A stretch of DNA of 38,495 bases from an uncultured Mycoplasmatota bacterium (lineage in GTDB: Bacteria > Bacillota_I > Bacilli_A > RF39 > UBA660): contig CANPPW010000013.1 of assembly GCA_947576095.1 (NCBI GenBank), positions 1 to 38,495 of the forward strand. The letters run 5' to 3'. Position numbers and translations under genes: made by a program. The notes beneath the pieces are model-generated. The model did not search any database. It saw only the letters and a program-made list of their open reading frames with translations, and was not told where the DNA came from. Below, one piece after another: positions 15,318 to 26,924 of the stretch (position 1 is the stretch's first letter; every line of letters starts with the position of its first letter).

Positions 15318-15347
15318 AACAAATAAATTTTTTTAAATTTATTTGTT
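15318..15347 (-). terminator. Terminator overlapping the 3' end of the minus-strand gene
   Basis: AACAAATAAATTT (15318-15330) and AAATTTATTTGTT (15335-15347) form a perfect 13-bp stem with a 4-base loop. On the minus strand it is followed by TTTTTTC. The stop codon (15339-15341) of the unknown gene lies inside the stem. Confidence 0.75.
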
Positions 15348-16157
15348 TGAGTATTGATAAGTTGAATGATTTGTAAGTCTGAGTTGCAAGATAGTTGAAT
15401 CTTCATTTGTGAAATATTTATTTTGAATATACATTAACTTCTGTGCATTTTGACTTTCCATCTGGAGTATTCGAATAGATTCTTTTGCACTTTTTTCAAT
15501 GATTCTAGCAAGATGCATAATAGAATCTCCATCTAAGTTAAAATTTTGTAGAACTTCATATAATACTTCAATAGGCCAGTTGATTTCACTTTTGTAGAGT
15601 TTGGTAATGATTTCATAAATAGATTGTGGCATATGAAATTGGTTTAAATTTTTGTGTGCGTGTAAATCATTCCATAGTTTTTCTTTATCAAATCCCTTTT
15701 GTATTAAATAATCGTGAATGATTTGAAATTCTTGATATCGAATAGCCCTGATTTGTTGGTCTGTCAATAGACCGTTTTCTTCTACTTTTTTTGCTTCACT
15801 GAAAAAATGAGAAGAAGAACTATCCACGACCCTTTGGAATCTAGCCCAATCATAAATGAGTTCCCACATCGGATTTCCATCAATTGCTTGTAAAATCAAA
15901 CAATTTCTGGCCTGTTTTACAAATCGTTCATTTTGTGTGATTATACGATTTTGAGTTAGATTTATACATTTAATTTTTAATCTTTCTCTCCAATCATAGA
16001 ATTCTGTTGAAGAATATACCTCCTGCCATAGCTCGTTACGCAATTCTTCTATTACACCATTCAAAATAAGTTTTTCTTCTTCAGATAAAAAATGGTTCCC
16101 CAATCTTAACCATGTGAGAATTACTTTTTGTTGTTTAGGGGGAAATGTTGTTTTCAT
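15339..16157 (-). CDS. Hypothetical protein, 272 aa
   Basis: A soluble, mostly helical protein of 272 residues with a very good ribosome binding site (GAAAGGAGTGAT) before its ATG at 16157. It opens MKTTFPPKQQKVILTWLRLG and is rich in Trp, Gln and Glu. Four tryptophans lie in the first 110 residues, including ELWQEVY, WELIYDWARFQR. I recognise no domain, signal peptide or membrane segment. It is the only minus-strand gene between gltX and recD2 and ends in its own terminator, so it is a single-gene unit. A TATAAT-like box lies about 30 bases upstream on the minus strand. Confidence 0.7.
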   Translation of the reverse strand: MKTTFPPKQQKVILTWLRLGNHFLSEEEKLILNGVIEELRNELWQEVYSSTEFYDWRERLKIKCINLTQNRIITQNERFVKQARNCLILQAIDGNPMWELIYDWARFQRVVDSSSSHFFSEAKKVEENGLLTDQQIRAIRYQEFQIIHDYLIQKGFDKEKLWNDLHAHKNLNQFHMPQSIYEIITKLYKSEINWPIEVLYEVLQNFNLDGDSIMHLARIIEKSAKESIRILQMESQNAQKLMYIQNKYFTNEDSTILQLRLTNHSTYQYSNK

Positions 16158-19525: not shown

Positions 19526-19575
19526 GCATTTTTAATAGTATCATGATAAAATAAAATAAAAATGAGGTGGCTAAG

Positions 19576-22167
19576 TTGGGAGAGTATGACCAGTTTATCA
19601 GTGAAATCTTAAAAAAACCAGAACTTTTAGAAAAAAAAGAAAATTTTGAAAAAATCTTTTTGGTGCCTTTTCATAAAGCAAGTCTTTTATTTGCACGTCT
19701 TCCTAAATCTATTTTTAGTAATATGGTCAAACATACTGAGATTTTGGAGTCCACAAATGAAATGTTTTTTAAATCTTTTTTCTTAAACTGTAAGATAGAA
19801 GACCAGAAGTATATATTAGATAATGATATTTTACTTTATAAAATTGTATGTTCCAAACCCAATACTAATAAAAAATATATTTATGATTTGGTAGATTCCT
19901 CTATTAAAGTAGATTTAATTTCCCGCTTTTGTAAAACGGAGCAAATCGAAAAGGGGTTTACGAAAAAATTGATAGATAGACTTTCTATGGATGAATTTAT
20001 ACAAAATCTCCCTTTATTAAAATCTATTTTAAAATCGTATTATAAACTATCTATATCTGAAGATAAGGATACAATTTTAGATAAAATTCAAGAAAAATAT
20101 GGAATTTTAAGAGAAGAGGCTATAAAGTTTTATACACTTGCTAAATCAGGGCAAAGAGAACTTTTGATGTTAGAAAAAATCGCTGATAAAGAAACATTTG
20201 TTATATATAGCCGTTTTGGTCTTTTGTTAAAAGTTTCTTTAGAAAATGGAACATTTATATTCGAAGAGGAAGTAACTTATGCAGAAACTCTCATTTGTCA
20301 TATTGAGGTTAAACCCATATTACGTCTTTTTCAGATGATTATAAAAAAAGAAGAGAAAATATCATATGAAAAAGCTTTTGTTTTATCCATTCAATTATAT
20401 AGTCTTGTAGGTTTTGATGATGCCAAAAAAATTTTGGATGATAAATTTACCTATGTAACAGATGCATCCCTTAAACGTGCTGCTGAATTGAACTTTATTT
20501 GTGAGCGAAGAAAATATAGACTTTCTCATCCTGATGAATTTTATCATCATAAGATTCAAAATAGAATAAAAGAGGGTATCCAAAAGAAGGATATATCCGT
20601 CTTTAAAAGCTTCACAGCTTTTAAAGACTCTTCTTATATAAAAAACTTTATATCCTCTTTAGAACATAAGATAATGCACGTAAAAGAAGAGATGCAAGAG
20701 AAAACTTTATGTGATATTTTATCAGCGGAGATTGGTAAAAGAGAATGTCTTTTAAAACTGGAATTTACTAAACAATATATAAAAAACTATAGAAAACTAT
20801 ATCCTAGAAAAAGAGATGCACTTAGTTTTGAAGAATTATATCAGATGTTTTCTCATATTTCTTCCAATCTCTTTCAGTTTGATAGAGCAGGTAAGAGTGT
20901 GGTAGACGAACAATTAAGTACCTTTTTGCTTGGAAATAAAAAGGTAGACAATGATTGTTTGTTAAGGCTTTTGTTTAATCATATTGATGTAGGAATGAAC
21001 CAATCGATTGATCAGGTGCTAAATCATTTTTCGCTTATAAAAAATATTGTACAAAAATCAAATGGCAATCTATCTTTACATTCTCTTTTGGATGTACAAA
21101 ATATATGTAGTGCCGTTTTGTATCATTTAGAACCAGATGAAAAAGATTTATCTTTGGATACTATATCCAAAATACTTAAATCACATAAACATTGTACAGA
21201 GCCTAAAGAACAAATTTTTAAACGAGCAAGAGAATTACACCGAAAACAGAAAGGAAAGGTTTGTAGTACAATTCCATCTACAAGTGGGAGTATAGAAGGC
21301 GAAGTAGAGTATTGTGTACTTCCTTTTGATAGTGATAAGATTATAACCGCAGGAATTGATACGGGAAGTTGTTTGAAAGTAGGAGGCAAGGGGGAAGACT
21401 TTTTAACTTATATTGCTACAAGCTGGCATTCACTGATTGTATCTTTATATGATCAAAGGGAACAAAAAGTATATGTTTGCCCTTTTATTCGAAATGGAAA
21501 TGGGTTATATGGAAATGGAATAGATCCTAAGCCGCCTGAAGCAAGATTTCCTTATCTATTAAAAGCATTGCAGCAATGTACTTTAGAGATGATCAGAAAA
21601 ACGGATGAATCTGAACCCCTATCTTTTGCGACGATAACAGATTTGAATATCGAAGAGCAAATAAAGTCCTTTTCGCTTCCTACTATGAAAATAGATACAT
21701 ATTTACCTATTGAATCTACCTTTTATTCTGATTATCATAAAGAAAATAAACAAACTTATGTACTTGCAACAAAAGAAGAGGCTATCAAACCTTTATACTA
21801 TGTTCCATCCATACTATACTATCAAAAGAGAGAAGATATTTATACATATATATATGGACAAAGTGCAGATCATCTTACCGATCAGATCAACAGTATTGCT
21901 TATGCACAGATATCTTATTTAAATGTATCAGAGCAAGAACAAATGAGAAGGAAACGTAATTTTGTTCCTTTAGATGTTACCCAATTTTCTTACATTATGG
22001 GAAATAAGGATTGGTTTATTGCAGTTGATTTTGAAAATAATATATTACTTAAGTTATTACCAAATGACAAAAGAGCACAGATTGAGTGTATGCAAGCATT
22101 AGATATGATTCATAAAAAAATACTAGAAGAAAAGGAGCTGCATTGTGGAAATAAAAGGTATTGTTAA
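19576..22167 (+). CDS. Large unassigned protein, 863 aa
   Basis: A long soluble protein starting at TTG 19576, chosen because GAGGTGG ends 6 bases upstream; GTG 19567 would sit inside that site. No signal peptide or membrane segment. The first 560 residues are alpha-helical and repetitive in feel, with many Leu/Lys/Phe helices, as in HEAT-like scaffolds. A compact C-terminal part follows. Around residues 590-665 lies a conserved-looking block: AGIDTGSCLKVGGKGEDF, then VYVCPFIRNGNGLYGNGIDPKPP and CTLEMIRK. Its Cys, Gly and Asn pattern looks enzymatic or metal-binding, but I cannot place it in a family. The final 180 residues are mixed alpha/beta. It overlaps the following OB-fold gene, so the two are probably made together. 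Confidence 0.8.
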   Translation: MGEYDQFISEILKKPELLEKKENFEKIFLVPFHKASLLFARLPKSIFSNMVKHTEILESTNEMFFKSFFLNCKIEDQKYILDNDILLYKIVCSKPNTNKKYIYDLVDSSIKVDLISRFCKTEQIEKGFTKKLIDRLSMDEFIQNLPLLKSILKSYYKLSISEDKDTILDKIQEKYGILREEAIKFYTLAKSGQRELLMLEKIADKETFVIYSRFGLLLKVSLENGTFIFEEEVTYAETLICHIEVKPILRLFQMIIKKEEKISYEKAFVLSIQLYSLVGFDDAKKILDDKFTYVTDASLKRAAELNFICERRKYRLSHPDEFYHHKIQNRIKEGIQKKDISVFKSFTAFKDSSYIKNFISSLEHKIMHVKEEMQEKTLCDILSAEIGKRECLLKLEFTKQYIKNYRKLYPRKRDALSFEELYQMFSHISSNLFQFDRAGKSVVDEQLSTFLLGNKKVDNDCLLRLLFNHIDVGMNQSIDQVLNHFSLIKNIVQKSNGNLSLHSLLDVQNICSAVLYHLEPDEKDLSLDTISKILKSHKHCTEPKEQIFKRARELHRKQKGKVCSTIPSTSGSIEGEVEYCVLPFDSDKIITAGIDTGSCLKVGGKGEDFLTYIATSWHSLIVSLYDQREQKVYVCPFIRNGNGLYGNGIDPKPPEARFPYLLKALQQCTLEMIRKTDESEPLSFATITDLNIEEQIKSFSLPTMKIDTYLPIESTFYSDYHKENKQTYVLATKEEAIKPLYYVPSILYYQKREDIYTYIYGQSADHLTDQINSIAYAQISYLNVSEQEQMRRKRNFVPLDVTQFSYIMGNKDWFIAVDFENNILLKLLPNDKRAQIECMQALDMIHKKILEEKELHCGNKRYC

Positions 22168-22363
22168 AGAAATTGATATATCGGGAGGATTTATCATAGG
22201 ATCAGATCGGAATGAATATGTATTTAATCATCTTGACATTTTAGGTTCAATTCCCTTAAAAAAAGGAGATATTGTCTTATTTAAAGCCAACCAAACATAT
22301 GATGTCAAAAAAACAATCCATTACGCAACACTAATTACAAAAGAAAAAGAGAAAAATATTTGA
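22145..22363 (+). CDS. Small OB-fold / cold-shock-like protein, 72 aa
   Basis: A 72-residue protein from GTG 22145, overlapping the end of the 863-residue gene by 23 bases, with AAAAGGAG upstream inside that gene. The sequence EIKGIVKEIDISGGFIIGSDRNEYVFNHLDILGSIPLKKGDIVLFKAN has the spacing of a cold-shock or S1-like beta barrel: G.VK....GFI.....EYVF.......L..GD.V.F. Classical cold-shock proteins carry aromatic RNP motifs (KGFGFI, VFVHF) that are only partly kept, so nucleic-acid binding is plausible but unproven. Coupling to the large gene suggests a shared role. Confidence 0.6.
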   Translation: MEIKGIVKEIDISGGFIIGSDRNEYVFNHLDILGSIPLKKGDIVLFKANQTYDVKKTIHYATLITKEKEKNI

Positions 22364-26219: not shown

Positions 26220-26294
26220 ATTATCACCTAATAAAATATACTCAATTGTATAAAATATTATGCTTAGTATCAAGATAAAATAGAGGTGATATTT

Positions 26295-26924
26295 ATGTAT
26301 ATATCTATTATTTTTAAAACATTATTTATTTACTTTTTTATAGCCTTTGTATATCGAATTATGGGGAAGAAAGAAGTGGGACAACTTGGCATTATCGATT
26401 TGATTGTATCCATTTTAATTGCAGAATTAGGTGCTCTTACAATTGAAAACGAAAAAGCCTCTATTTTGGTTTCCATTATACCTATTACAGTAATTGTATG
26501 TATTCAGCTTATATTAGGATACCTGTCTTTGAAAAATGCACATTTAAGACATTTTATCGATGGAAATCCTGTTGTGATTATTAATAAGGGAAAATTAAAT
26601 TTTAAAGAAATGACAAGACTTAGATATACATTAGATGATTTAGTAGGACAACTTCGAGAACAAGGAATTCAAAGTATTGAACAAGTTGAATATGCTGTAT
26701 TAGAAAATAATGGGAAATTATCTGTTTTTGAAGAAGAAAAAAATTATCCATTACCAATTATTTTAGATGGTATAGTTGATGAGAAAGTACTTGAAGAAAT
26801 TGGAAAGGATGAGGTATGGTTATATAAAATGCTGAAAGATAGAAAAATACATTTAGAAGATGTTTTTTATGCATTTTATAAAGGTAAGCAGACTTTTATT
26901 ATTAAAAAAAGTGATTTAATATAA
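26295..26924 (+). CDS. yrbG: DUF421 membrane protein (YrbG-like)
   Basis: A 209-residue protein from ATG 26295, where AGAGGTGAT gives a good site. Three N-terminal membrane segments (about residues 4-20, 30-50, 58-76) are followed by the two-part DUF421 cytoplasmic domain: FIDGNPVVIINKGKLNFKEMTRLRYTLDDLVGQLREQGI and EYAVLENNGKLSVF. This region is conserved in YetF/YrbG-type proteins. In Bacillus members influence spore germination or envelope properties. The biochemical activity is unknown. The gene is divergent from the TIGR04086 gene, as expected from the Bacillus arrangement tgt-yajC-yrzE-yrbG-spoVB. Confidence 0.85.
   Translation: MYISIIFKTLFIYFFIAFVYRIMGKKEVGQLGIIDLIVSILIAELGALTIENEKASILVSIIPITVIVCIQLILGYLSLKNAHLRHFIDGNPVVIINKGKLNFKEMTRLRYTLDDLVGQLREQGIQSIEQVEYAVLENNGKLSVFEEEKNYPLPIILDGIVDEKVLEEIGKDEVWLYKMLKDRKIHLEDVFYAFYKGKQTFIIKKSDLI

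Follow-up and report, generated by a model that had tools for sequence, protein, structure and literature searches.

The aminoacyl-tRNA transferases ATE1, FemX, L-PGS, and LFTR do not use acyl-CoA. These enzymes have a common GNAT core (PMC10115844; PMC2922099). The consensus of the GNAT P-loop is Gln/Arg-x-x-Gly-x-Gly/Ala; active GNATs with atypical P-loops exist, and an inactive GNAT domain lacking the P-loop Gln/Arg is also on record (PMC4964394). The locus described here lies in a window of 38,495 nucleotides (the whole stretch of DNA analyzed) that makes up one contig of the 1.16-Mb genome of an uncultured bacterium whose named relatives are Bacilli, for example Candidatus Onthousia and Candidatus Faecimonas. 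These bacteria belong to a group of Bacilli from the gut with small genomes. It consists of two overlapping genes, the larger encoding a protein with a candidate GNAT-fold domain and the smaller a predicted, divergent cold-shock domain. We know of no described system that has GNAT-fold and cold-shock domains as one dedicated module, and a separate gene for a cold-shock subunit is, to our knowledge, no part of the GNAT-fold aminoacyl-tRNA transferase families. Literature searches on a GNAT with a cold-shock domain, a GNAT toxin with a cold-shock protein, PcfJ with a GNAT, and DUF4116 with an acetyltransferase returned nothing relevant. The pair seems undescribed, and it has the following features.

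19576–22167, + strand: large gene, TTG start, 863 amino acids, from the open reading frame search; predicted helical superhelix, helical middle, and C-terminal GNAT-like block
22145–22363, + strand: small gene, GTG start, 72 amino acids, divergent cold-shock domain by profile and fold searches; shares 23 bp with the large gene
19564–19570, + strand: GAGGTGG, a Shine-Dalgarno-like site 5 nt 5' of the large gene's TTG, by sequence inspection
22132–22137, + strand: ribosome-binding site AAGGAG of the small gene, 7 nt 5' of GTG 22145 and within the 3' end of the large gene, by sequence inspection
19576–20175, + strand: residues ~1–200 of the large protein, predicted α-superhelix, with weak PUF/importin/MgtE_N-like rows
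21262–21783, + strand: residues 563–736, GNAT-fold-like α/β domain with Gly593, Cys599, Arg639, Gly641, and Asn642; P-loop absent
21829–22164, + strand: residues 752–863, conserved C-terminal helix-strand-strand-strand-helix piece (GNKDWFIA...DKRA)

The original prediction had placed an 863-residue gene in a 23-base overlap with a small gene. Both open reading frames were found, with 23 bp shared and a good ribosome-binding site for each, and the two peptides singled out in the large protein, TGSCLKVGGKGEDF and CPFIRNGNGLYGNGIDP, are present. The large open reading frame has an alternative GTG start at 19567, upstream of TTG 19576. As the TTG has a good Shine-Dalgarno sequence and GTG 19567 falls within it, 863 amino acids is the likelier length. 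The small protein is probably made from the same mRNA as the large one, by coupled translation.

Intact or nearly intact homologues of the large protein (27–36% identity) occur at 31 loci in other genomes among the GTDB species genomes, all in Bacilli wherever a class is named, and the gene overlap recurs at the relatives' loci (4–68 bp). This recurring arrangement and the 31 relatives put the pair above chance. Within the same bacterial family, 19 of 145 genomes have a match to the large protein, 11 of them strong, the window's genome included. Some copies are irregular. At two loci (L032:8683-11676 and L066), the large gene consists of a 256-amino acid N-terminal frame and a separate C-terminal frame, which is either a broken copy or a true split, and at another (L068) it is present only as a short C-terminal frame. 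A stop interrupts the large gene in L175:3-2188, which retains the cold-shock gene, followed by a GQYFT-type protein that by eye is DNA methyltransferase-like.

The small gene is present at 23 of the 32 close loci, where it overlaps the large gene or, in one case (L072), is fused. At that locus (L072:779-2152), the cold-shock partner is in frame with the next gene, that of phosphopentomutase DeoB (named by eye). The partner also accompanies divergent members of the superfamily (765–1740 amino acids), either downstream (L035, L036, L039, L041, L107, L112, L115, and L121) or upstream (L038 and L126). Conversely, a profile of the partner gave 15 matches in 141 family genomes (E up to 0.002), 14 of which adjoin a superfamily gene; the sole exception is L174:5519-5731. 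The partner is absent from the remaining nine close loci (28%; L044, L045, L046, L049, L050, L051, L063, L065, and L067), where a six-frame profile search detected no hidden or frameshifted copy. Two of these (L065 and L067) have deoB directly 3' of the large gene. The coupling claimed for the two genes therefore proved strong but not universal, and the separation that would speak against it was found in part. Linkage is much tighter in the converse direction: a small gene rarely occurs without a large one, whereas the nine homologues without a partner indicate that the small gene is not obligatory.

Four congeners keep yneF, the class-I amidotransferase gene, and murF in order, without either gene of the pair. 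The spot varies within the genus; in these genomes (L152, L153, L154, and L158) it contains almost nothing or unrelated genes (460- and 162-amino acid products; 144-amino acid and reverse-strand 387-amino acid products; 141- and 109-amino acid products). Given this joint absence, the 14 of 15 adjacencies, and the 23 of 32 close loci with a partner, the two genes can be regarded as a single unit, a conserved accessory module. We infer that the two proteins act together.

In the window, gltX, recD2, and yneF lie upstream of the pair, and genes for a class-I glutamine amidotransferase, murF, and tgt lie downstream. Two further neighbors, at 15339–16157 (− strand, 272 amino acids) and 26286–26924 (+ strand, 212 amino acids), have no NCBIfam match. 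The genes surrounding the relatives' loci are unrelated, mostly housekeeping, and different each time, and offer no functional hint. It is highly improbable that the pair serves this bacterial family as a housekeeping factor for RNA modification or translation, linked to adjoining core genes. Proximity to tgt, gltX, and murF here, and to deoB-, mutS-, pnp-, and tex-like genes (named by eye) elsewhere, would suit such a role, but the neighbors change from locus to locus and the genes are missing from most genomes of the family, which argues that the pair is accessory.

The small protein had been predicted to be a nucleic-acid-binding-type barrel, and it can be assigned more precisely than to a generic OB fold. 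Its model (pLDDT 82) is that of a cold-shock domain, a five-stranded OB barrel. Foldseek matched it to CspA, CspC, and Unr domains (prob 1.00), and VIA aligned it with cold-shock proteins and Unr over 62–70 residues (Z 9–10), although cold-shock matches of this kind also resemble other OB barrels, such as IF-1 and S1. The best match of the family profile to PDB sequences was a cold-shock family protein (2kcm, E 0.004). Like CspA/CspB and the cold-shock domains of Unr (Z about 10), the small protein has the five-stranded barrel, a similar size, and partial RNP motifs. It differs from them in its diverged RNP1, in a PF00313 score below the Pfam cut-off (17 bits against 27 bits; E 0.0055), and in almost always adjoining the large gene. 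Since RNP1 is only partly retained, RNA binding by the small protein is not assured.

The large protein yielded no worthwhile match in Pfam, NCBIfam, PADLOC, or PHROGs, and a sequence-profile comparison with the PDB gave noise only; as had been proposed, the two-gene system has no name in these family libraries. An AlphaFold model built from an alignment of 32 sequences (mean pLDDT 86), together with the alignments, bears out a helical scaffold followed by a compact, conserved C-terminal block. The N-terminal half is predicted to be helical and to begin with a superhelix, for which VIA gave weak MgtE_N/PUF/importin-like rows (2yvy, 9ptd, and 1wa5). A Pfam match to MgtE_N occurs in two of the 32 members (best E 5e-5).

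The C-terminal block had been considered unmatchable to any family. This holds for sequence profiles but not for fold, as the structural searches consistently returned GNATs. All 50 of the Foldseek matches listed for the large model against the PDB are GNAT-superfamily proteins (best E 0.042, none <0.001). Most VIA rows for residues 563–736 are GNATs too, with Z 6.6–7.7 over 115–150 residues, and the rows of the large model include FemA (1lrz, Z 7.5) and ATE1 (8tzv, Z 6.7); according to the tool, Z < 8 can reflect a common arrangement. The predicted order of elements in residues 563–736, β-α-α-β-β-β-α-β, fits the GNAT topology. Residues 752–863 align weakly in VIA with the C-terminal halves of the GNAT domains in NAGS and ATE1, a likeness that would be in keeping with a GNAT that is split or doubled. 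No sequence profile of the GNAT, Fem, ATE1, or LFTR families matches any member, nor do the Pfam and NCBIfam GNAT models match the large protein or its relatives. Thus, residues 563–736 are consistent with a GNAT fold, which we regard as unproven because no row is individually significant and sequence methods are blind to it. The assignment could instead be an artifact of a common arrangement, with the C-terminal block having another, unnamed α/β fold. The Foldseek E values above 0.04, the VIA Z values below 8, and the missing profile matches would fit this explanation. It appears unlikely, however, as the matches listed all point to a single superfamily, whose succession of strands and helices agrees with that of the model.

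Compared with the GNAT superfamily (NatD, Gcn5, RimI, and SpeG), residues 563–736 have a candidate likeness in predicted topology and overall fold, whereas the 863-amino acid protein has no detected sequence similarity, no P-loop, an invariant cysteine, and a long helical N-terminal part. The acyl-CoA P-loop (Q/R-x-x-G-x-G/A), located between β4 and α3 in GNATs, occurs in 0 of 66 aligned members. In the same alignment, Gly593 and Cys599 are invariant (66/66 each) and Arg639 is nearly so (63/66). Cys599 sits between helices 1 and 2. An Arg-Gly-Asn turn (Arg639, Gly641, and Asn642) is nearly invariant across very large divergence. Conservation of this kind in the Gly/Cys/Arg set is more suggestive of an active site than of a scaffold.

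We tentatively favor, over any single alternative, an accessory two-protein module in which a CoA-independent GNAT-fold transferase is brought to nucleic acid by the cold-shock subunit. The large protein would form an α-helical scaffold with a GNAT-fold domain, much diverged, at its end, and the cold-shock subunit may bind single-stranded RNA (or ssDNA). In a putative physical complex, this subunit and the scaffold would place the GNAT-like domain at a substrate associated with nucleic acid, where the domain might transfer an acyl or aminoacyl group without CoA, by analogy with FemX, L/F-transferase, and ATE1, which act with aminoacyl-tRNA. The GNAT core, often two-lobed and with a basic tRNA-binding helix, is used with aminoacyl-tRNA in FemX/FemA, ATE1, L/F-transferase, and MprF/L-PGS, and a cold-shock partner would make sense for a substrate linked to RNA. 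Relative to these enzymes, the large protein has no profile match, and the candidate likeness is at the level of fold. The linkage of the two genes, the empty sites, the GNAT rows, the Gly/Cys/Arg conservation, the precedent of the GNAT-core aminoacyl-tRNA transferases, and the cold-shock fold argue for this reading. It is weakened by the missing GNAT profile match, the lack of a significant fold hit, the nine homologues without a partner, the uninformative neighbors, the partial RNP1, and the fact that GNAT domains lacking a proper P-loop can be inactive (PMC4964394).

Nearly as likely as a CoA-independent transferase is a purely non-catalytic role, in which the GNAT-like domain would be a pseudo-enzyme that senses a ligand or acts as a scaffold, like ornithine decarboxylase antizyme, and the pair an RNA-binding regulator. 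The P-loop is missing from every aligned member, VIA itself lists the antizyme (4zgy, Z 7.5, 116 residues, rmsd 3.7; again a Z below 8), and binding proteins typically combine a helical scaffold with a cold-shock protein in this way. The resemblance of the invariant glycine and cysteine and the near-invariant Arg-Gly-Asn turn to an active site speaks against this role.

The C-terminal block defines a wider superfamily. Its profile (A4) detected members in 118 of 386 genomes of the bacterial family, and when 392 genomes sampled from the phylum were searched, all clear matches fell within this family. Members reach 1870 residues, and their N-terminal parts differ, including DUF4116 and BspA-type leucine-rich repeats. 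Two BspA-type leucine-rich repeat proteins (L110:367-4281 and L111:5839-9768) have a version of the superfamily C-terminal domain. Giant proteins of 1300–1870 amino acids (L109:1803-7424, L108, L113, L123, and L124) end in a half-domain of the superfamily with the pattern CCQ...AQSWVWRN...LCFDNIE, with several arranged in tandem on a single contig (L123 and L124).

This CCQ branch (CCQ...QSWVWRN...CFDNIE) has a relative in the Microcystis phage MaMV-DC, namely ORF68L (L135:1762-3852), a hypothetical protein of 697 amino acids. The C-terminal CCQ...AQSW...CFDN block of ORF68L, which follows a long N-terminal part, is homologous to that of the CCQ branch, but ORF68L is only distantly related to the 863-amino acid protein and has no partner gene annotated next to it in the stretch shown. 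A viral origin was considered and rejected: IMG/VR contains no match to the 863-amino acid protein or the CCQ-branch profile, the phage collection likewise has no relative of the former, and matches to the CCQ branch were confined to MaMV-type phages. Plasmids gave nothing noteworthy. By eye, an NC motif and strands follow each other similarly in the PcfJ family (PF14284), and PcfJ-like phage models are among the weak structural rows. Membership in PcfJ found no support, since hhalign against PcfJ loci from family genomes detected no similarity (P 0.28–0.68, with a thin PcfJ alignment of five sequences).

The patchy, accessory distribution of the large protein and its superfamily, the complete absence of the two-gene unit at empty sites, and the distant phage relative would be compatible with an anti-phage or toxin-antitoxin module, in which the GNAT-like domain would be the effector and the cold-shock protein the sensor or antitoxin. 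Against this, a PADLOC scan of the two window proteins matched no defense system, the surroundings are mostly core genes rather than defense islands (single cases excepted), and nine members have no partner. Moreover, acetylating GNAT toxins have a P-loop, which is absent here. As there are neither consistent defense neighbors nor a PADLOC match, we consider such a module less likely than a transferase or a non-catalytic regulator, and quite unlikely overall.

The C-terminal block of the large protein, then, has no strong match to a characterized family and a weak match at the level of fold. A bolder form of the transferase reading, which we consider doubtful, is that the pair represents a new class of two-subunit RNA-associated transferase, in which a CoA-independent GNAT-fold catalytic domain with a Cys/Arg active site, carried on a helical scaffold, would be delivered to RNA, perhaps aminoacyl-tRNA, by a dedicated cold-shock subunit. 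The module would have spread among small-genome gut Bacilli as an accessory cassette, with a distant counterpart in large cyanophages. Should the pair work as proposed, a role could be assigned to a domain superfamily that about a third of the family's sampled genomes encode, as do some phages. Even without the mechanism, the locus provides two proteins that can be tested together, and a site with an invariant cysteine and a near-invariant arginine, for many unannotated proteins.
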